Shown in pieces: positions 1 to 18,008 of a DNA stretch of 43,997 bases. Position 1 is the first letter of the stretch; the number at the start of each line of letters is the position of its first letter. Both the position numbers and the translations under genes were made by a program. The DNA is from Aliihoeflea sp. 40Bstr573 (GTDB lineage Bacteria > Pseudomonadota > Alphaproteobacteria > Rhizobiales > Rhizobiaceae): assembly GCF_024105655.1 (NCBI RefSeq), contig NZ_JAAAMH010000023.1, positions 1 to 43,997 on the forward strand, written 5' to 3'. Below the pieces are notes generated by a model that worked only from the letters and a program-made list of their open reading frames with translations, searched no databases and was not told the DNA's origin.

Positions 1-119
1 TCGCCCAGCGCGTCGAGGTTGCGGACGGCGAGGTCCGGATCATGGGATCGAAGACCCGGCTGCTCCAGGCGCTCACCGGAAAAAACGGCGTAAACTCAGT
101 GCCCACTCAAGGACTGAAG
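1..119 (+). CDS. Serine recombinase, C-terminal tail (partial, 5' end outside window)
   Basis: An open frame enters from the window edge (codons in phase with position 3) and reads QRVEVADGEVRIMGSKTRLL, then GVNSVP and LKWR. This matches my memory of the last residues of large serine recombinases (resolvase plus zinc-ribbon type) in alphaproteobacteria, which commonly end with an RVEV..EVRIMGSK..LL stretch and a few residues encoded by the target tRNA gene. The frame has no stop before the tRNA: it continues through the 3' part of tRNA-Ser and stays open to 536, so the native stop probably lies in or beyond the attachment site. I end the feature at the tRNA. Only about 40 residues are visible, with no catalytic domain, so the family call comes from tail similarity and position only. 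Confidence 0.4.
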
Positions 120-209
120 TGGCGGAGGGAGTGGGATTCGAACCCACGGAGACATCGCTGCCTCGCCGGTTTTCAAGACCGGTGCCTTAAACCGCTCGGC
201 CATCCCTCC
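120..209 (-). tRNA. tRNA-Ser (anticodon UGA)
   Basis: The reverse complement folds as a class II tRNA of 90 nt including an encoded CCA. The acceptor stem pairs GGAGGGA with TCCCTCC, the discriminator is G, the D arm reads GCCGAGCGGTTTAAGGC, and the anticodon stem CCGGT/ACCGG encloses loop CTTGAAA, giving anticodon TGA. A long variable arm follows, and the T arm contains GGTTCGAATCC. It decodes UCA. The 3' end faces the left window edge, where an apparent recombinase reading frame abuts it, so this gene is the likely integration target of a mobile element. Confidence 0.97.
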
Positions 210-2120: not shown

Positions 2121-2149
2121 CGATCCGATCCGCGCCCACGCGCGTAAAC
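2121..2149 (+). promoter_or_regulatory. Candidate RpoE(ChrR-type) ECF promoter upstream of phrB
   Basis: CGATCC at 2121-2126 and TAAAC at 2145-2149 are separated by exactly 18 bp. The promoter recognised by R. sphaeroides RpoE is, as I recall, TGATCC-N18-TAAGA, so this differs at one -35 base and at the end of the -10. It lies 48 nt before the photolyase start. Short matches in GC-rich DNA can be chance; the similar element before the ChrR-like gene raises its interest. Confidence 0.35.
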
Positions 2150-2197: not shown

Positions 2198-3658
2198 ATG
2201 GCATCCAAAGACCACACTTCCGGCCGGCCCGCGCTCGTCCTCTTTCGCCACGATCTGCGGCTTGCCGACAACCGTGCGCTGCGCGCCGCCGTCGACAGCG
2301 GCCGGCCCGTCGTTCCGGTCTTCGTCTTCGACGAGATGAGCGAGGGGATGCGCAGGATCGGCGGCGCGCGGCGCTGGTGGCTGCACCATTCGCTGGAAGC
2401 GCTGGCCGCAGCGCTGGAAAAGGCCGGCGCGGATCTCATCTTGCGTGCCGGCCCGATGGCCGATGTTGCTGGCGACCTCGTGAAGGAGACCGGTGCCGAG
2501 GCCGTCTACTGGAACCGCCGTTACGATCCGCCCGCGATCGCCGCCGACAAGGAGATGAAATCCCGCCTCATCGAAAGCGGCATCGAGGCGCAAAGCTTCG
2601 AAGGCCATCTCCTGCATGAGCCGTGGCAGATCAAGACCAGGACCGGCGGCTTCTACAAAGTCTACACCCCCTTCTGGCGGGCGCTGGTCGCCGAGATCGA
2701 GCCCCGCGCGCCGGTCGCAAGACCCCGCGAGATCGCGCCGTTTTCAGGCGATCTGAAATCCGAAAAGCTGGCCGATTGGGGGCTCATGCCCGAAAAGCCC
2801 GACTGGTCAGGTGGCTTGCGAGACACCTGGAAACCCGGCGAGGACGGTGCCCACGAAGCGCTCGGCGCGTTCCTGTCCGGGCCGATCAAGGGCTACGGCG
2901 AAAACCGCGACCGGCCGGATTTCCATTCCACTTCGCGCCTGTCGCCCTATCTCGCCCATGGCGAGATCACGCCGTTCCAGATCTGGCATGCGCTGGAAAC
3001 GCGCAAGATCGATGCCGCGCCCGGCGACATCGAGAAGTTCCGCAAGGAGGTCGCCTGGCGCGAGTTCTCGTACCACCTCCTCTTTCACAATCCCGATCTC
3101 GGCGTGACCAACTTCAACCGGGACTTCGACGCCTTCGCCTGGAAGAAGGACGCGACCGCCCTTCGCGCCTGGCAGCACGGCCAGACCGGCTATCCGCTGG
3201 TCGATGCCGGCATGCGCCAATTGTGGCAGACGGGCTGGGTCCATAACCGCGTACGCATGGTCGTCGCATCCTTCCTGGTCAAGCATCTCCTTCAGGATTG
3301 GCGCGCCGGAGAGGCATGGTTCTGGGATACCCTGGTCGACGCCGATCCGGCCAGCAACACGGCAAGCTGGCAGTGGGTTGCCGGCTCCGGCGCCGATGCC
3401 GCGCCCTATTTCCGCGTCTTCAATCCGATGCTCCAGGGCGAGAAGTTCGACCCCGACGGCAAGTATGTCCGCCATTTCGTCACCGAGCTCTCGCAACTCG
3501 GCAATGGCGATCTGCAGGCGCCGTGGACGGCTTCGAAACACGCACTTTCAGCCGCTGGCGTGAAACTCGGCACTGATTATCCCGTACCTGTCGTCGACCA
3601 TTCCAAGGCCCGCGACCGGGCGCTCGAAGCCTATCAAGAGATGCGAGGGAATACATGA
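2198..3658 (+). CDS. phrB: Deoxyribodipyrimidine photo-lyase (class I)
   Basis: Uses blue light and reduced FAD to split cyclobutane pyrimidine dimers in DNA. The 486-residue protein has the photolyase N-terminal antenna domain (LVLFRHDLRLADNRALRAA, then ARRWWLHHSL) and the C-terminal FAD domain with the blocks RPDFHSTSRLSPYLAHGEI, TGYPLVDAGMRQLWQTGWVH, DADPASNTASWQWVAGSG and FRVFNPMLQGEKFDP, typical of class I CPD enzymes. ATG 2198 gives a normal N-terminus although its ribosome-binding site is weak. The stop overlaps the start of the next gene (ATGA), indicating translational coupling. It heads the phrB-FAD-DUF1365-cfa block, a gene set linked to the singlet-oxygen response in other bacteria. 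Confidence 0.96.
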   Translation: MASKDHTSGRPALVLFRHDLRLADNRALRAAVDSGRPVVPVFVFDEMSEGMRRIGGARRWWLHHSLEALAAALEKAGADLILRAGPMADVAGDLVKETGAEAVYWNRRYDPPAIAADKEMKSRLIESGIEAQSFEGHLLHEPWQIKTRTGGFYKVYTPFWRALVAEIEPRAPVARPREIAPFSGDLKSEKLADWGLMPEKPDWSGGLRDTWKPGEDGAHEALGAFLSGPIKGYGENRDRPDFHSTSRLSPYLAHGEITPFQIWHALETRKIDAAPGDIEKFRKEVAWREFSYHLLFHNPDLGVTNFNRDFDAFAWKKDATALRAWQHGQTGYPLVDAGMRQLWQTGWVHNRVRMVVASFLVKHLLQDWRAGEAWFWDTLVDADPASNTASWQWVAGSGADAAPYFRVFNPMLQGEKFDPDGKYVRHFVTELSQLGNGDLQAPWTASKHALSAAGVKLGTDYPVPVVDHSKARDRALEAYQEMRGNT

Positions 3659-4998
3659 ACATCGTTCCGATCAGCCGCACGGCGGACGGCCGCAGGAAGA
3701 TCGCCGTTGTCGGCTCCGGAATTTCGGGAGCGTCGGCGGCGTGGGCCTTGCGCGACGTCGCCGAGGTAACGCTGTTCGAGGCCGACGCCCGCCCCGGTGG
3801 TCACACGGCGACGGTCGACATCGACTATGATGGAACGCAAATCGCGGTCGATACCGGCTTCATCGTCTACAACGAGCACAACTACCCGGATCTCACCGCC
3901 CTCTTCGCGCATCTGGGCGTAGCCACGCATGAAAGCGACATGGGCTTTTCGCTCTCCCTCGACGGAGGCAGGCTCGAATGGAGCGGCCAGAGCTACGCAT
4001 CGATCTTCGCCCAGCGGCGCAATCTCTTCTCGCCGCGCTTCTTGAAGATGCTCGGCGAAATCCTGCGCTTCAACAAGCAGTGCGTCGCCGACCGGGACGG
4101 CGGCCGTCTCGCCGGCATGACGATTGGCGACTACCTCGTCGAGCGTCGCTTTTCGCCGGGCTTTCGCGACAACTACCTGATCCCGATGGCAGCCGCGATC
4201 TGGTCGACCCCGCGCATCAAGATGCTCGACTATCCGGCCGCGACCTTCGTCAATTTCTTTCAGAACCACCGCCTGATCCATCACGAGCGTCCGATGTGGC
4301 GCACGGTCACCGGCGGGGCCAGGACCTATCTCGACGAGCTGCTCGCTTCGCTTCAGGGCCGTGTCCGGCTCGCAAGCCCGGTCGAGACGATCATCCGCGA
4401 CGCTCTCGGCGTCACTGTCTGGACGAAGGACGCAGCGCCCGAGCGCTTCGACGCGATCGTCGTGGCGACCCATTCCGATCAGGCCTTGCGGCTCCTCGGC
4501 GATGCCTCGCCTCTTGAGCAGACCATCCTCGGTGATGTCCACTACCGCTCGAACCGCGTCATCCTCCATCGCGATCAAAGCCTGATGCCGCGGCGCCGCA
4601 TCGCATGGTCGGCCTGGAACTACCTGCGCGCCAGTGAAGCCGAGGAAGAGCGCGAGGTCTCGGTCACCTACTGGATGAACCGCCTGCAGGGCATCGATCC
4701 GGCCAGGCCGCTCTTCGTCTCGCTCAATCCCGCCGTCGATCCCGCGCCAGGAACGATCTTTGGCGAATGGGCCTATGAGCATCCCCAGTTCGACGCCCGC
4801 GCTCTTACCGCGCAGTCGCGTCTCGACGAAATCCAGGGCGTGCGCCACACTTGGTTCGCCGGCGCGTGGACGGGCTACGGCTTCCACGAGGATGGCCTGA
4901 GGTCCGGGCTCGACGCCGCTTTCGCGCTCGGGGCGACGGTTCCGTGGACACGCGGCAGCAAGGCGAGCGAGGCCGAGCTCCCGCTGGCCGCCGAATAG
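3655..4998 (+). CDS. NAD(P)/FAD-dependent oxidoreductase (amine-oxidase type)
   Basis: A 447-residue flavoprotein. The dinucleotide-binding motif GSGISG (residues 20-25) sits in IAVVGSGISGASAAWAL, followed by the FAD ribose-binding acid and FEADARPGGHT, and the C-terminal FAD motif is near TWFAGAWTGYGFHEDGL. It belongs to the flavin amine oxidase/desaturase-like superfamily of the COG2907 type. The true substrate is not known to me. It overlaps phrB by 4 nt (ATGA, with GAGGGA upstream as ribosome-binding site) and is followed after 9-36 nt by the DUF1365 gene. Homologues are repeatedly found with DUF1365 and cfa, which suggests a role in modifying unsaturated membrane fatty acids. That role is inference from context. 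Confidence 0.85.
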   Translation: MNIVPISRTADGRRKIAVVGSGISGASAAWALRDVAEVTLFEADARPGGHTATVDIDYDGTQIAVDTGFIVYNEHNYPDLTALFAHLGVATHESDMGFSLSLDGGRLEWSGQSYASIFAQRRNLFSPRFLKMLGEILRFNKQCVADRDGGRLAGMTIGDYLVERRFSPGFRDNYLIPMAAAIWSTPRIKMLDYPAATFVNFFQNHRLIHHERPMWRTVTGGARTYLDELLASLQGRVRLASPVETIIRDALGVTVWTKDAAPERFDAIVVATHSDQALRLLGDASPLEQTILGDVHYRSNRVILHRDQSLMPRRRIAWSAWNYLRASEAEEEREVSVTYWMNRLQGIDPARPLFVSLNPAVDPAPGTIFGEWAYEHPQFDARALTAQSRLDEIQGVRHTWFAGAWTGYGFHEDGLRSGLDAAFALGATVPWTRGSKASEAELPLAAE

Positions 4999-5034
4999 GC
5001 ACCGATCATGATCCGCAAGGAGCGCATCACCACC

Positions 5035-5856
5035 ATGGAAGCGAACGGCGCGGCGCCCACCGCTGCCGCCTCGCTCTATGCCGGCGAGGTGATGCACGCG
5101 CGCATGCGGCCTTTTTCGCACCGCTTCACCTACCGCGTCTTCTCGCTGCTCCTCGATCTCGACCGCCTGCCCGAAGCCGGCCGGCAGTCGGCGCTGTTTT
5201 CGGTCGACCGCCCGGGGCCCGTTTCCTTCCACCAGAAGGATCACACGAGGCGCGAGGGCGAAACGTTGCGCCAGATGGCCGACCGGCTTCTGGCCGATGC
5301 GGGTCTCGCCGAGCCGCCAACTCGCATCCTGCTACTCGCCTATCCGCGTATCCTCGGCTACGCCTTCAATCCCATCTCGATCTACTTCGCCTATGGCGCG
5401 GATGATGAACTGGTCGCCCTGATCTACGCCGTCCGAAACACTTTCGGCGAAAGCCACACCTATGTCGCGCTGGTCGAGGATGGAGAACTGACGCCGGCCG
5501 GCATCCGTCAGGAGCGGACCAAGGTCTTTCACGTCTCGCCCTTCATCGACATGGGCGCGCGCTATCATTTTCGCGTCCTGCCGCCCGGCAACGTCGTGCG
5601 CCTGCGCATTCACGAGACCGAGGCCGGCACGCCGCTCCTGTCGGCCACCTTCGCGGGCGAGCATCGCGAGCTGACGACTCGCGACCTTGCGCGCACCCTC
5701 TTGCGCACGCCCCTGATGACATGGAAAGTGATCGCGGGGATACATTACGAAGCGCTGAAGCTCTGGCTCAAGGGCGCGCGATTCCACAAGAGCCCGCCGC
5801 CGCCGAAACCGGCCAGTTTTCGGGACGCGGCAAAGGTTCTTACGGCCGGCGAATAG
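5035..5856 (+). CDS. DUF1365 family protein
   Basis: A 273-residue protein with the DUF1365 signature: SLYAGEVMHARMRPFSHRF near the N-terminus, then VFSLLLDLDRL, RILLLAYPRILGYAFNPISIYFAY and FHVSPFIDM. The family has no established biochemical role as far as I know. I prefer ATG 5035, which has AAGGAG about 12 nt upstream and gives a family-like N-terminus. ATG 5008, in frame, would add nine residues but has no ribosome-binding site. It lies between the FAD oxidoreductase and the cyclopropane synthase with short gaps, so it is almost certainly part of the same operon. By association it may assist lipid modification during photooxidative stress. Confidence 0.88.
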   Translation: MEANGAAPTAAASLYAGEVMHARMRPFSHRFTYRVFSLLLDLDRLPEAGRQSALFSVDRPGPVSFHQKDHTRREGETLRQMADRLLADAGLAEPPTRILLLAYPRILGYAFNPISIYFAYGADDELVALIYAVRNTFGESHTYVALVEDGELTPAGIRQERTKVFHVSPFIDMGARYHFRVLPPGNVVRLRIHETEAGTPLLSATFAGEHRELTTRDLARTLLRTPLMTWKVIAGIHYEALKLWLKGARFHKSPPPPKPASFRDAAKVLTAGE

Positions 5857-5881
5857 CTGGCGACGCAGTGAGGTGGAGGGC

Positions 5882-7135
5882 ATGGAAGACAGCGCTACGA
5901 TGCAGCAGATGGCCGGTGCGATGGTTCTGACGGACGCCAACTTCGCGCAGGCGACGCGCGGCCTGCCGGCGCGCGCGCGCATGGCGCTCAAGGTCGGCAT
6001 GTCGATGCCGCACGGCACGCTCACGGTCGAGCTTCCGGACGGCCGCGCCCTGAAGGTCGGCGGCAATGGCCCCGGCCCCGACGCCCATGTCCGGCTTAAC
6101 AACTGGAACCTCGTCGGCCGCGCCTTTTCCGGCGCGACGATCGGCGTTGCCGAATCCTATGTCGACGGCGACTGGGAAAGCGCCGACGTCACGTCCTTCC
6201 TCGAACTCTTCGTCGTCAACGAAGAGGCAGGTGAAGCCGTCGCAGGCGGTGCGAACTTCATGCTGACGCTCTTCCAGCGTCTGCGCCACTGGTTCCACCA
6301 GAACTCGAAGTCCGGTTCCAGGCGCAACATCTCCGCCCATTACGATCTCGGCAACGCCTTCTATCGTGAATGGCTCGACCCCTCGATGACCTATTCCTCG
6401 GCGCTCTACGCCTCCGGCGCCAACGACCTCGAGGGCGCACAGGCCGAAAAATACCGGGCGCTTGCCCGCGACACCGGCATCGGGCCGAACGACCATGTGC
6501 TGGAGATCGGCTGCGGCTGGGGCGGTTTTGCCGAATTCGCCGCCCGCGAGATTGGCTGCAAGGTCACCGGCCTGACGATCAGCCGCGAGCAGCACGACTT
6601 CGCCACCGCCCGCATTGCAAAGGCGGGACTCTCAGACCGCGTCCAGATCAAGTTCCAGGACTACCGCGACGAGGCCGGCCGCTACGACCGCATAGCCTCG
6701 ATCGAGATGTTCGAGGCGGTCGGCGAGAAATACTGGCCCGTCTTCTTCTCCAAGATGCGCGACTGCCTCAACCCCGGCGGCGCGGCCGGGCTTCAGATTA
6801 TCACCATCAAGGACGAGATTTTCCCGACCTACCGCGCTCGGCCCGATTTCATCCAGCGTTATGTCTTTCCGGGGGGCATGCTTCCCTCGCCAAAGATCCT
6901 GCGCGCCCTTGGCGCCGATCACGGCCTGAAACTGGCTGCCGAACGGGTCTTTCCCCAAGACTACGCCCGAACGCTCGCCGAATGGCGCGACCGTTTCCAC
7001 GCCTCCTGGCACAAGATCGTGCCGCTCGGCTTCGACGACCGCTTCAAGCGGCTCTGGGAGTTCTACCTGCACTATTGCGAAGCCGGCTTCCGCGCCGAAT
7101 ATATCGACGTCCGCCAGGTCATCTACCGGAACTGA
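5882..7135 (+). CDS. cfa: Cyclopropane-fatty-acyl-phospholipid synthase
   Basis: Transfers a methylene group from S-adenosylmethionine to cis double bonds of membrane phospholipid acyl chains. The 417-residue protein carries the SAM motif VLEIGCGWGGFAEFAA at about residues 205-220 and family blocks NISAHYDLGNAFYREWLDPSMTY's core (SAHYDLGN, YREWLD), GLTISREQ, SIEMFEAVGEKYW and FIQRYVFPGGMLPS. ATG 5882 follows GTGGAGGG closely; an in-frame GTG lies at 5873. It is the last gene of the photolyase-FAD-DUF1365 block and is followed by a GC-rich hairpin. A cfa homologue in an operon with DUF1365 and FAD-enzyme genes belongs to the RpoE-ChrR regulon of R. sphaeroides, so a stress role is plausible. 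Confidence 0.94.
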   Translation: MEDSATMQQMAGAMVLTDANFAQATRGLPARARMALKVGMSMPHGTLTVELPDGRALKVGGNGPGPDAHVRLNNWNLVGRAFSGATIGVAESYVDGDWESADVTSFLELFVVNEEAGEAVAGGANFMLTLFQRLRHWFHQNSKSGSRRNISAHYDLGNAFYREWLDPSMTYSSALYASGANDLEGAQAEKYRALARDTGIGPNDHVLEIGCGWGGFAEFAAREIGCKVTGLTISREQHDFATARIAKAGLSDRVQIKFQDYRDEAGRYDRIASIEMFEAVGEKYWPVFFSKMRDCLNPGGAAGLQIITIKDEIFPTYRARPDFIQRYVFPGGMLPSPKILRALGADHGLKLAAERVFPQDYARTLAEWRDRFHASWHKIVPLGFDDRFKRLWEFYLHYCEAGFRAEYIDVRQVIYRN

Positions 7136-15111: not shown

Positions 15112-15140
15112 TGATCCGGATTGTGCTTAGGGCCGTATCT
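15112..15140 (+). promoter_or_regulatory. Candidate RpoE(ChrR-type) ECF promoter upstream of the chrR-like gene
   Basis: TGATCC at 15112-15117 is an exact match to the -35 box recognised by the R. sphaeroides singlet-oxygen sigma factor. Exactly 18 bp later comes TATCT at 15136-15140, which is only partly like the TAAGA -10 box. The start codon is 76 nt further on. Together with the same-spaced element at 2121-2149 it suggests shared control of the two loci. Confidence 0.4.
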
Positions 15141-15216: not shown

Positions 15217-15855
15217 ATGACGGCAGAGACCATCGACACGATCGACGCGCTGATGGCGCGTTATGCGGCTGGCACGCTGCCATATCCGGCCCATGTTCTG
15301 GTCCAGTCCCATCTGGAGATCGCCAACGCCAATCGCGACCTCGTCGCCGGCCTCGAGGAACTTGCAGCCGGCGCGCTCGACGCCGCCGAGCCACAGCCGA
15401 TGGCCGATCACGCGCAGCGCCTGTCGTCGATCTTCGGCAGCGCCCCGCCGGTCGAAGCGATCCGCCGCCCCTCCACCGGCATCTTCCCCGCGGCCCTGCG
15501 CGATTTTGTCGGCTTCGACGCCGACGATGTGCCATGGCGGACCAAGATGCCCGGCTTTCGCGAATACGACATGGATGTCGATGGCTGCCACGCGAGCCTT
15601 TTCTGGATCAGGCCGGGCCGCAAGATTCCCGCCCACACCCATGAAGGCCAGGAATTGACGCTCGTTCTGGACGGTGCCTTCACCGACATTTTCGGCCGCT
15701 ACGGGCGCGGAGACATTTCGGTCGCAAACGAAGCGGTGGACCATCGACCGATCGCCGAGAAGGAACGGCCCTGCATCGGCTTTGCCATCACCGACGCCCC
15801 GCTTCGCTTCACCGGCCCGCTGACCCAGCGCCTGACCGACATTCTGGGCGCATGA
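15217..15855 (+). CDS. ChrR-like cupin protein with degenerate anti-sigma zinc site
   Basis: A 212-residue protein collinear with ChrR, the zinc anti-sigma factor that holds RpoE until singlet oxygen appears. The C-terminal cupin keeps all four ligands at equivalent spacing: His140, His142, Glu146 (HTHEGQELTLVL) and His176 (EAVDHRPIAE), followed by the ChrR-like ITDAPLRF. The N-terminal anti-sigma region aligns (DALMARYAAGTL) and keeps His32. However, the CxxC cysteines are replaced by Ala36 and Asn39 (HLEIANANR), and the first His is Asp7. It therefore probably cannot bind zinc in that domain as ChrR does. No ECF sigma gene is adjacent. It starts 16 nt before an SDR gene. Either it binds a sigma factor without zinc, or it is a cupin enzyme or sensor of the same regulon. 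Confidence 0.85.
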   Translation: MTAETIDTIDALMARYAAGTLPYPAHVLVQSHLEIANANRDLVAGLEELAAGALDAAEPQPMADHAQRLSSIFGSAPPVEAIRRPSTGIFPAALRDFVGFDADDVPWRTKMPGFREYDMDVDGCHASLFWIRPGRKIPAHTHEGQELTLVLDGAFTDIFGRYGRGDISVANEAVDHRPIAEKERPCIGFAITDAPLRFTGPLTQRLTDILGA

Positions 15856-15871
15856 TTCCCCGGGACGCACG

Positions 15872-16708
15872 ATGAGCCTTTACCGCGCCCGACCCGAAGA
15901 CGGCGTCGCATGGATCACAGGCGCCTCCACCGGCATCGGCCGGCAGGTGGCGATCGACCTCGCACGCGCGGGCTACATTGTCGCCGCGACCGCGCGCGAC
16001 GACGACAAGCTCGAAGAAGTCGCCGAAGCCGCCATCAAGGCCGGCACCAGGGGTCGCATCGTGCCCATGGCATGCGACGTCAAGGACACCGCCGCCATGG
16101 AACGCACTGTCGACCGGATCGAGGGCGAACTCGGCCCGATCGTGCTCGCCATCTTCAATGCCGGCACCTATTCGCCCACGCTTGGCGAAAGGCTTGAGGT
16201 GGAGAACTTCCACGGCACCTTTACCGTCAACCTGTTCGGCGTCGTCAATGGACTGGTTCCGGTGAGCGATCGGATGCGCGAGCGCGGCCATGGCCAGATC
16301 GCGATCACTGGCTCGGTGACCGCCTATTTCGGTCTGCCTTCCGCCGCCGCCTACGGCGCGACGAAGGCAGCGCTGAACAGCATGGCGCGCAGCCTGAAGT
16401 ACGATTTCGACAAGCTGAACATCCGTATCCAGGTGTTCAACCCCGGCTTCGTCGACACGCCGCTGACGAAGAAGAACAAATTCGCGATGCCCGCACTGAT
16501 GAAAGTCGAGGACGCCGGCGCGCGCTATGTCGAGGGGCTGAAGACAGGCGGTTTCGAGGTCTCCTTCCCGCGTCGATTGTCCTATGTTCTCAAGGCGTTC
16601 GGCTACCTTCCGGATTCACTTTATTATCGTCTTGTCAGGCGGGTCACCGGCTGGGACGAGCGCCGCGTCGCTTCCGGCAAGGACAAGCGCCGCGTGGTCA
16701 GCCGGTAG
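15872..16708 (+). CDS. Short-chain dehydrogenase/reductase
   Basis: A 278-residue NAD(P)-dependent oxidoreductase. The cofactor motif TGxxxGIG is visible in WITGASTGIGRQVAIDLARAG (about residues 16-30), NAGTYSP corresponds to the NAG motif, the catalytic Ser lies in ITGSVTAYFG and the Tyr-x3-Lys in AAYGATKAALNSMARSL. The C-terminal part (SYVLKAFGYLPDSLYYRLVRRVTG) is hydrophobic and may contact membrane. It lies 16 nt after the ChrR-like gene and is likely co-transcribed. SDR genes accompany chrR, FAD-oxidoreductase, DUF1365 and cfa in the corresponding loci of other proteobacteria. Substrate unknown. Confidence 0.9.
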   Translation: MSLYRARPEDGVAWITGASTGIGRQVAIDLARAGYIVAATARDDDKLEEVAEAAIKAGTRGRIVPMACDVKDTAAMERTVDRIEGELGPIVLAIFNAGTYSPTLGERLEVENFHGTFTVNLFGVVNGLVPVSDRMRERGHGQIAITGSVTAYFGLPSAAAYGATKAALNSMARSLKYDFDKLNIRIQVFNPGFVDTPLTKKNKFAMPALMKVEDAGARYVEGLKTGGFEVSFPRRLSYVLKAFGYLPDSLYYRLVRRVTGWDERRVASGKDKRRVVSR

Positions 16709-18008
16709 CCTCGATCCGCGACCGCAGATCCCGCTGCGCGATCTCGTCGAGCGGAAAGTTCCACATCAGCGCGATGGCGCCAAGCTTCAGCGCGACCGGC
16801 ACCCACGCATAGATGATGGCAAGCGCTGTCAGCGCGCGCGCATCGTTGTCACCGCCGGCCGTAAACCCGAAGAACTGGAGGACCGGAAAGGCGAGCCCGA
16901 CGGCGAGCGCAAGCGACAGCTTGGTCACAAGGCTCCACGCCGCGAAGTAGAGCCCTGAACGCTGCTCGCCGGACGATGCCGTATCGACGTCGATCACGTC
17001 CGCCTGGATCGCCGCCGGCAAGGCGAGATCGAAGCCGAGCGTCAGCCCGGTTGCGACCGACAGGGCGGCGAATGCAGGCCAGTTGCCCTCCCCGATCAAG
17101 GGCGCGAAGGCGAAGACGACGCAGATGAAGAGCATGGCCACGCACCACGCGCGGTGCTTGCCGAGGCGCCGCGCCGCGGCCAGCGCCAGCGGCATGCCGG
17201 CGATGCCGGAGAGAAAATAGACGAAGAGCAGCGGCCCGCGCATCTCGGTCATCCCGAGCCTGTCGGAAACGAAATAGAGAAAGAGCGTGGCGGGAATGCC
17301 ATTGGCGAGCCCGTTGATGAGAAATGCCGCGATCAGCCGCAGGAACGGGCCGTTGCGCGCCATATGGCGCAGACCGCCGCGAAGGTTCAGCCGCGAGTGC
17401 GAGTGGTCGCGCGGTTCGGGCACGCGCCAGACGGTGAGCCCACCCAGCGCCACGAGCAGCACGGCGACGGCGATCCCCAGCACGGCAAGGCCCTGCAACC
17501 CCTCGGCGCTTTCCATGCCGATGGCGAAGGGCAGCGCGATGGCGAGTAGCGTGCCGGCAAGCGTGAACCCTTCGCGAAAGCCCGCCACCCGCGCGCGCTC
17601 GCGGTAGTCTCCCGCCATCTCCGCCCCCCACGAGGTCAATGGAATGATTGCCGCGGTATAGCCGATCGAAAGCATCGCTCCCCAGAAGACGAGATATCCC
17701 GGACCGGCACCTTCCGGCGGCCAGAACAGCATCAGAGCGGAAAGCGCCGCGATGGGCAGCGAGACGAGAAACGTCGCCCGCCGCCGTCCCATCTTCGCCC
17801 GCCACCGATCCGCCGCCCAGCCGATGAGCGGGTCGTTGACGGCGTCGAACAACCGCACGAGCAACAGCGCCGTACCGACGGCGGCGAGCGACAGGCCGAG
17901 CGTCTCGGAATAGAAGGTCGGAACGATGATGTAGAGAGGAAGCGTCAGCGCGGCCAGCGGGATCGCCGGCAGCGCGTAGAGGACGAGGCGGGTGGCCGGC
18001 AGGGACAT
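16698..18008 (-). CDS. MFS transporter (GPH/sugar-cation symporter-like)
   Basis: A 436-residue inner-membrane protein with about 12 predicted membrane segments. The N-terminal pattern PLAALTLPLYIIVPTFYSETLGLSL and the loop FDAVNDPLIGWAADRWRAKMGRRR are typical of the glycoside-pentoside-hexuronide group of the major facilitator superfamily. The substrate is not clear. Its stop overlaps the SDR stop by 11 nt in convergent orientation, with no terminator between them. MFS carriers of this kind occur beside the SDR/FAD/DUF1365/cfa genes in related loci, so it may move a lipid or lipid precursor, but this is inference. Confidence 0.88.
   Translation of the reverse strand: MSLPATRLVLYALPAIPLAALTLPLYIIVPTFYSETLGLSLAAVGTALLLVRLFDAVNDPLIGWAADRWRAKMGRRRATFLVSLPIAALSALMLFWPPEGAGPGYLVFWGAMLSIGYTAAIIPLTSWGAEMAGDYRERARVAGFREGFTLAGTLLAIALPFAIGMESAEGLQGLAVLGIAVAVLLVALGGLTVWRVPEPRDHSHSRLNLRGGLRHMARNGPFLRLIAAFLINGLANGIPATLFLYFVSDRLGMTEMRGPLLFVYFLSGIAGMPLALAAARRLGKHRAWCVAMLFICVVFAFAPLIGEGNWPAFAALSVATGLTLGFDLALPAAIQADVIDVDTASSGEQRSGLYFAAWSLVTKLSLALAVGLAFPVLQFFGFTAGGDNDARALTALAIIYAWVPVALKLGAIALMWNFPLDEIAQRDLRSRIEATG

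Follow-up and report, generated by a model that had tools for sequence, protein, structure and literature searches.

The window, by which we mean the whole 43,997-nucleotide (44-kb) stretch of Aliihoeflea sp. 40Bstr573 DNA analyzed here, contains a gene for a ChrR-like protein that is preceded by a predicted ECF11-type promoter and followed on the same strand by a short-chain dehydrogenase (SDR) gene. It also carries a photolyase/furan-fatty-acid-type operon, which is of a type known from the ECF11 regulon (Table 1).

Table 1. Features of the chrR-like locus, the regulon-type operon and the ECF11-type sigma gene (window coordinates unless another reference is given).
Feature	Position	Strand	Remarks
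Weaker ECF11-type site, CGATCC-N16-CGTA	2121..2146	+	one mismatch, exact spacing; read by eye, before photolyase
DNA photolyase	2198..3658	+	
FAD-dependent oxidoreductase	3655..4998	+	UfaD-like by position only
DUF1365 protein	5008..5856	+	UfaO-like by position
Cyclopropane-fatty-acid-synthase-type methyltransferase	5873..7135	+	UfaM-like by position only
ECF11-type promoter (predicted), TGATCC-N16-CGTA	15112..15137	+	79 bases between its end and the chrR-like ATG
chrR-like gene, zinc-less	15217..15855	+	ATG start, 212 aa
Anti-sigma domain of the ChrR-like protein	residues ~8-75		N-terminal
Cupin domain of the ChrR-like protein	residues ~90-200		C-terminal
Short-chain dehydrogenase (SDR)	15872..16708	+	16 bases after the chrR-like stop
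GPH/MFS transporter	16698..18008	-	convergent with SDR
ECF11-type sigma gene	genome contig 34, 90687-91259	-	best PDB match R. sphaeroides RpoE

The protein passed the cut-off of the NCBIfam model TIGR02451 (ChrR family anti-sigma-E factor; 139.9 bits vs 124.5, residues 10-204) and remained below that of the ChrR equivalog model NF051881 (106.6 vs 300 bits). Its closest PDB relatives were chains of Rhodobacter sphaeroides ChrR (2z2s_B, E = 6e-33; 2q1z_B, E = 2.5e-29), with an alignment that spans most of the protein. The metal ligands of R. sphaeroides ChrR, as given in PMC6852236, are H6, H31, C35 and C38 in the anti-sigma domain and H141, H143, E147 and H177 in the cupin. At the anti-sigma columns the protein holds D7, H32, A36 and N39, the first of which was assigned from the family alignment, as the HMMER alignment with the PDB ChrR does not reach it, and it does not match the ZAS motif H/C-x24/25-H-x3-C-x2-C. 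The cupin set is complete (H140, H142, E146, H176) and was retained in all 133 homologues aligned. The alignments thereby bear out the preliminary description, which had recognized a ChrR-like protein with an intact cupin site and three of four zinc ligands replaced, leaving His32. A CxxC motif at any position, including the shifted one that this description had allowed for, was absent from residues 1-90 of the protein and of all 74 members of the clade described below.

An AlphaFold model computed from 11 sequences (mean pLDDT 73) comprised helices 8-18, 23-35 and 37-55 together with the cupin. Confidence was higher for the first two helices (block pLDDT mostly 80-89) than for helix 37-55 (67 and 47), and a helix at 65-74 fell mostly in a stretch below 50. 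Foldseek searches with this model placed ChrR chains at ranks 1-6 (E = 9e-15 to 1e-11, query TM 0.61-0.70, rmsd ~5 A), and the cupin half also resembled other cupins, KdgF and TM1459 among them, with scores far below those of ChrR.

To place the protein among its relatives, we assembled homologous loci from 150 listed places, aligning first 105 of these with 10 named loci (including Hoeflea, Aliihoeflea, Aquibium and a Rhizobium sp.; 115 in total) and later adding 20 stretches, of which 19 had a usable ChrR, then 11 loci, nine of them from elsewhere in the class, and then 30 more. A tree of 133 homologues, which included all 74 unlinked zinc-less sequences then collected, set these 74 on one side of a branch with an ultrafast bootstrap of 100, an SH-aLRT of 98 and recovery in 100% of 200 bootstrap trees. 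In every member the zinc site is missing and the cupin site retained, and the stretches examined contain no sigma gene. Because the same loss is common to the whole clade, the missing ligands are not the result of chance or annotation noise. The former cysteine columns most often hold serine (S36, 37/74) and asparagine (N39, 48/74), flanked by R40 (58/74), and H32 is kept in 68/74, giving a clade consensus at the lost site of roughly SHLEL-S-P-x-N-R.

The final count covered 175 homologues, of which 172 had a complete N-terminus (L154, L291 and L301 were dropped). With zinc state defined as a motif match within the first 60 residues rather than as measured metal, and with loci that mostly extend ~1.5 kb per side (8 kb at the named loci) and are sometimes cut by contig ends, Hx3Cx2C occurred with a sigma gene in the locus in 75/172 and without one in 4/172 (L121, at a contig end, L147, L151 and L153); homologues lacking the motif numbered 79/172 without and 14/172 with a sigma gene. 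Nine of the latter were represented in the tree, all outside the clade, and their distribution requires at least four changes. Zinc-ligand loss beside a sigma gene was seen in L158 and L241-L245 (G019, G101, G132, G160, G184, G246); L141, L276, L278, L279 and L282 (G099, G130, G225, G278, G293); L253 (G065); L299 (G238); and L140 (G275). In 9 of the 14 (three plus six), the ChrR frame begins inside the end of the sigma frame. Two genomes, G060 (L147) and G097 (L151), carry a zinc-less unlinked ChrR together with another ChrR whose zinc motif is complete; this second copy has no sigma gene in its stretch and a promoter motif ~196 bases upstream, and the zinc-less copy of G097 contains an in-frame TGA.

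The genome under study (4.2 Mb, 69 contigs, 99.99% complete) encodes one ChrR without a sigma neighbour and one ECF11-type sigma factor without a ChrR neighbour. A tblastn search with ECF11-type queries returned no sigma gene in the window, in agreement with the earlier statement that no ECF sigma gene adjoins the chrR-like gene, and none of the 10 sigma-70 region-2 matches in the genome lies on the window's contig. The sigma factor on contig 34 matched R. sphaeroides RpoE best in the PDB (E = 7e-48), followed by SigK (9e-21); it is flanked by a convergent DUF1232 gene and a divergent IalB-type gene, with no ChrR adjacent. A canonical RpoE-ChrR pair elsewhere in the genome had been named, together with a deletion that leaves the regulon unaffected, as an outcome that would speak against the protein's proposed role. 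Our profile search returned no second ChrR above the TIGR02451 cut-off, and the genes at hand, on contig 16 (chrR-like) and contig 34 (sigma), do not form the single operon of a canonical pair. The only other TIGR02451 match, on contig 12, was rejected as a second ChrR, as it scored far under the cut-off (17.6 bits, E = 0.005) and adjoins a different sigma factor; at this site (~307700-309025; L003, 941-2259) the end of an ECF sigma gene overlaps a 259-aa frame that weakly resembles the anti-sigma half of ChrR.

Next, we determined how ChrR-like proteins and ECF11 sigma factors are distributed in 297 genomes of the order, using thresholds of E <= 1e-10 for the former and E <= 1e-30 for the latter. 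A ChrR-like homologue was detected in 174 genomes and an ECF11 sigma in 172; counted as genomes rather than independent events, both were found in 170, neither in 121, only the homologue in 4 and only the sigma in 2. In both sigma-only genomes (G027, G165) a ChrR below the search threshold adjoins the sigma gene, and in three of the ChrR-only genomes (G003, G125, G201) a divergent sigma gene adjoins ChrR; the fourth (G267) has its ChrR match at one end of a contig of 3,373 bases. As 5/6 discordant genomes reflect threshold effects, the two genes co-occur almost without exception. All 64 genomes of the unlinked type that were searched encode an ECF11 sigma, on another contig or at a distance, with no ChrR adjacent. 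Across the class, 89/385 genomes matched the ChrR-like protein at E <= 1e-25. Among nine genomes with loci from outside the order, four (G416, G418, G519, G604) showed a zinc-less ChrR with no sigma gene adjacent and with a promoter motif, and the other five a zinc-type, sigma-adjacent ChrR without the motif, a pattern matched by the in-order loci L270 and L271.

We also inspected the surroundings of the 64 orphan sigma genes. A homologue of the IalB-type gene is divergent from the sigma gene in 62/64 genomes (L053-L082, L160-L163, L179-L208), a very conserved location with no evident operon partner. The flanking genes that were identified or viewed are of the IalB or DUF1232 type or resemble, by eye, quinone oxidoreductases or dipeptidases, and no anti-sigma factor was recognized among the identified flanking frames (downstream flanks were viewed at 11/64 loci). 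In a sigma tree built by a quick method with SH-aLRT support only, the 64 orphan sigmas grouped with a single otherwise-labelled row, G086, whose label proved wrong: the ChrR of this genome lacks the zinc site, carries the motif and is encoded on a different contig.

We then examined the predicted promoter. The consensus TGATCC-N16-CGTA derives from ChIP-Seq of an RpoE/ChrR-type sigma factor of Pseudomonas syringae (PMC5507510). The strict pattern TGATC(C/T)(A/G)...CGTA occurs within 250 bases of 66/74 clade genes (58 with a length of exactly 26 bases) and of 2/41 others (L147 and L151), against a background of 7 matches in 758,574 bases elsewhere in the clade loci. Of the background matches, those in L104 and L107 lie 299 and 308 bases before the chrR-like gene and that in L033 lies 1,052 bases before it; the other four, each a perfect ECF11-type site, are located ~8 kb downstream of the gene in L048 (at ~16074 on the minus strand), L049, L050 and L052, of which three are Hoeflea loci and one is from a relative. 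With the looser pattern TGATC(C/T)...CGTA and a limit of 300 bases, the motif preceded 72/79 zinc-less unlinked genes, leaving 7/79 without it; it preceded 0/62 zinc-type sigma-linked genes tested (13 more were outside the test), 0/8 zinc-less sigma-linked genes tested (6 more outside) and 2/4 zinc-type genes without sigma. No ECF11-type site was present within 300 bases of any of the 64 orphan sigma genes.

In the genome under study, the exact 26-base pattern with a purine (R) after TGATCY occurs twice, before the chrR-like gene and before rpoH (PRK07500, sigma-32), and in R. sphaeroides the ECF11 sigma directly targets rpoHII (PMC6852236). Without the R requirement four sites have a spacing of exactly 26 bases, and these are among the 15 sites that a looser pattern returned in this genome; open frames of >200 codons span 14/15, including the rpoH and chrR-like ones, so that this measure sorts nothing. 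The number of sites per genome was likewise discarded as evidence: nine genomes without the system (G069, G105, G136, G209, G265, G012, G020, G022, G025) carry 3-12 sites and 25 genomes with it carry 2-10. Since system-free genomes also have such sites, it is the position of the motif, not its count, that constitutes evidence.

The neighbouring genes are conserved as well. An SDR-like frame lies downstream of 59/74 clade genes and a divergent cysK upstream in 62/74 clade loci; the GPH/MFS transporter was found near 35/74, a figure to be read in light of the many stretches too short to show it. RSP_1087, which PMC5507510 matches to SDRs, belongs to the core regulon of R. sphaeroides. Among the 41 other ChrR loci, 37 contain a sigma gene and 23 a same-strand SDR-like frame. 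The presence of this frame at both clade and sigma-linked loci suggests that sigma and ChrR-SDR may formerly have been a single operon. Against this background, decay of a paralogue on its way to loss, which three missing zinc ligands and the interrupted G097 copy might indicate, is very improbable: the clade is large and well supported, its CysK and SDR neighbours, cupin site and promoter are conserved, and as the only ChrR above the cut-off in its genome the protein is no spare copy.

Further candidate target genes lie in the window itself. A phrB site of the same kind as that preceding the photolyase gene, also with one mismatch, is listed in PMC5507510. In the Hoeflea locus L048, a perfect site precedes a photolyase, an FAD oxidoreductase, a frame resembling DUF1365 (by eye) and a CFA-synthase-type gene, in the same order as at 2198-7135 of the window, and this row converges on the chrR-like/SDR genes. 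UfaD, UfaO and UfaM function in furan fatty acid synthesis in R. sphaeroides (PMC7380195). The corresponding labels in Table 1 were assigned by gene order and family, not by comparison with the R. sphaeroides proteins. We take UfaO to be a DUF1365 protein, and the window counterpart of RSP1090 is presumably the DUF1365 gene at 5008-5856. An equation of the ChrR-like protein itself with RSP1090, which R. sphaeroides requires for RpoE to be fully activated by singlet oxygen, was rejected, as RSP1090 is UfaO, a 250-aa fatty-acid enzyme, and the ChrR-like protein has no DUF1365 match.

A central question is whether the N-terminal domain still acts on a sigma factor. R. sphaeroides ChrR requires the anti-sigma zinc for sigma inhibition (PMC6852236), an argument against such activity here. 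Yet ~44% of class I anti-sigma domains have no zinc motif and groups of mixed composition exist (PMC7406223), so zinc loss alone does not exclude function. Mean pairwise identity of the anti-sigma domain was 0.418 in the clade vs 0.332 in 50 zinc-type ChrRs; for the region of helix 4, the sigma-2-binding helix of class I anti-sigma domains (PMC7406223), the values were 0.376 vs 0.216, and for the cupin 0.496 vs 0.453. Because the two groups differ in breadth, the ratio of anti-sigma to cupin identity is the fairer figure, and it was 0.84 in the clade vs 0.73 in the zinc-type group. The anti-sigma domain of the clade is thus conserved at least as well as that of zinc-bearing ChrRs.

We also compared evolutionary distances in the 43/64 genomes with usable CysK and SDR. 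Sigma and ChrR distances correlated at 0.747, with a partial correlation of 0.507 given CysK and SDR (0/2000 permutations). When the two halves of ChrR were considered separately, the partial correlation of sigma with the anti-sigma domain beyond the cupin was weak (0.198, 24/2000), and that with the cupin was 0.358. Distances of SDR also correlated with those of sigma (0.335), and the test is for this reason supportive only. On the sigma side, we take K38 of the R. sphaeroides protein to have a role in ChrR contact. The matching residue is lysine in 32/64 orphan sigmas vs 43/49 others, and asparagine in the genome under study; our literature search on sigma residues K38/M42 returned no papers. 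The sigma differences at positions 80, 82 and 87 (R. sphaeroides numbering) may concern promoter binding and were given no weight.

Two readings had been offered at the outset: that sigma is bound without zinc, or that the protein is a cupin sensor or enzyme acting on its own. In one form of the second, the protein would no longer bind sigma and would act as a sigma-dependent cupin effector, an enzyme or ligand binder working with the SDR, with the sigma factor controlled by other means. The ECF11-type promoter and the pairing with SDR are compatible with this, as are the loss of ligands that ChrR needs, the invariant cupin site, the likeness to KdgF and TM1459 and the closer tracking of sigma distances by the cupin half than by the anti-sigma half; co-occurrence with the sigma factor fits it too. 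However, it would leave the sigma with no ChrR beside it and no evident anti-sigma factor among the flanking genes identified or viewed; the anti-sigma domain, helix-4 region included, is conserved at or above the zinc-type level, and other lineages keep zinc-less ChrRs beside sigma. We consider this reading unlikely. Zinc-free sigma binding appears better supported, given a sigma factor in 64/64 genomes, the promoter, the domain conservation and the zinc-less ChrRs that adjoin a sigma gene.

Taken together, these observations lead us to favour, with a probability of roughly 0.6, a zinc-independent anti-sigma factor that would act on an unlinked sigma, with sensing by the cupin and sigma-controlled negative feedback. 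A soluble ChrR-family anti-sigma protein would hold the contig-34 ECF11 sigma without a zinc site, its helical bundle kept by packing and helix capping in place of Zn(His)2(Cys)2; that residues of the S36/N39/R40/H32 type provide the caps is a guess. The cupin, with its full set of metal ligands, would serve as the sensor, and photooxidative stress, presumably through singlet oxygen, would cause the protein to let go of the sigma or to be broken down. Once free, the sigma would transcribe rpoH, probably the photolyase/furan-fatty-acid-type operon, and the chrR-like/SDR operon from the promoter at 15112. With the anti-sigma factor induced and the sigma not, the expected outcome would be negative feedback. 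Weighing against this proposal are the zinc requirement of R. sphaeroides ChrR, the weak correlation of sigma with the anti-sigma domain, the variation at K38, the low model confidence in helices 37-55 and 65-74, the 7/79 genes that lack the motif, the uninformative motif counts per genome, and a co-occurrence that a sigma-dependent effector would also fit and that counts genomes rather than independent events.

Promoter placement also bears on a variant in which sigma is still bound and the sign or role of binding has changed, so that the protein would be a weak buffer or co-factor and another factor would keep the sigma off. With an ECF11-type site on the chrR-like gene and on 0/64 sigma genes, little of the protein may be present until the sigma becomes active. 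Basal transcription from other promoters may nevertheless suffice, and no other candidate was recognized near the sigma gene, which makes this variant improbable, more so than the cupin effector.

Our preferred reading, zinc-free inhibition of the unlinked sigma, can be set against several known systems. With ChrR-RpoE/sigma-E of R. sphaeroides (ECF11; 2q1z, 2z2s), the protein shares family, predicted fold and full cupin ligand set, and the genome likewise has an ECF11-type sigma, rpoH, a photolyase, an FAD/DUF1365/CFA-synthase operon and an SDR. In contrast to that system, the anti-sigma zinc site is missing, the sigma is encoded on another contig, and an ECF11-type site lies before the anti-sigma gene and none before the sigma gene. 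Absence of Hx3Cx2C is a feature shared with the class I anti-sigma domains of RseA (E. coli) and RskA (M. tuberculosis), which however belong to other groups, whereas the present protein is a ChrR that kept its cupin and lost the site. The 14 zinc-less sigma-adjacent ChrRs have similarly lost some or all zinc ligands and kept the cupin; unlike the clade, they adjoin a sigma gene, and the 8/14 tested have no separate motif. The RpoE/ChrR-like pair PSPTO_1043/1042 of P. syringae shares the consensus TGATCC-N16-CGTA and the phrB target, but its two genes are predicted to share a transcript, and a binding peak upstream of the sigma gene points to autoregulation (PMC5507510).

Zinc-less class I anti-sigma domains are already known and the ECF11-ChrR system is well studied; ECF sigmas without a linked anti-sigma factor have also been described (PMC3420878, PMC8999054). 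What appears to be new is a large clade of zinc-less ChrRs that are separated from their sigma and in which the anti-sigma gene carries the promoter: we found no prior description of a zinc-less, sigma-unlinked ChrR clade in the literature searched, and a mention in the key classification papers is possible. Tentatively, and at slightly less than even odds, we propose that a major lineage of the Alphaproteobacteria has rewired singlet-oxygen sensing, with a zinc-free, cupin-only sensor, a split pair, feedback through the anti-sigma factor only, and co-inheritance of partners that are no longer linked. The variant mode of singlet-oxygen sensing put forward in the preliminary description is, for this clade, an inference.

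These data bear on how ChrR senses singlet oxygen. In one account, the anti-sigma zinc finger has been argued to be the sensor, with the cupin needed in vivo and the full mechanism yet to be elucidated (PMC6432622). If the anti-sigma domain of the clade is indeed zinc-free, the zinc finger, whose reaction with singlet oxygen is fast in a model peptide of ChrR, would not be the sensor there, and the cupin alone would have to be. A clade that keeps the sigma, the regulon-type genes and the cupin but no zinc finger constitutes a natural experiment on the sensor question and supplies a naturally occurring zinc-free ChrR against which the zinc-dependent protein can be compared. Moreover, a split pair in which only one partner has a sigma-type promoter predicts a response whose shape would be unlike that of a joint operon.
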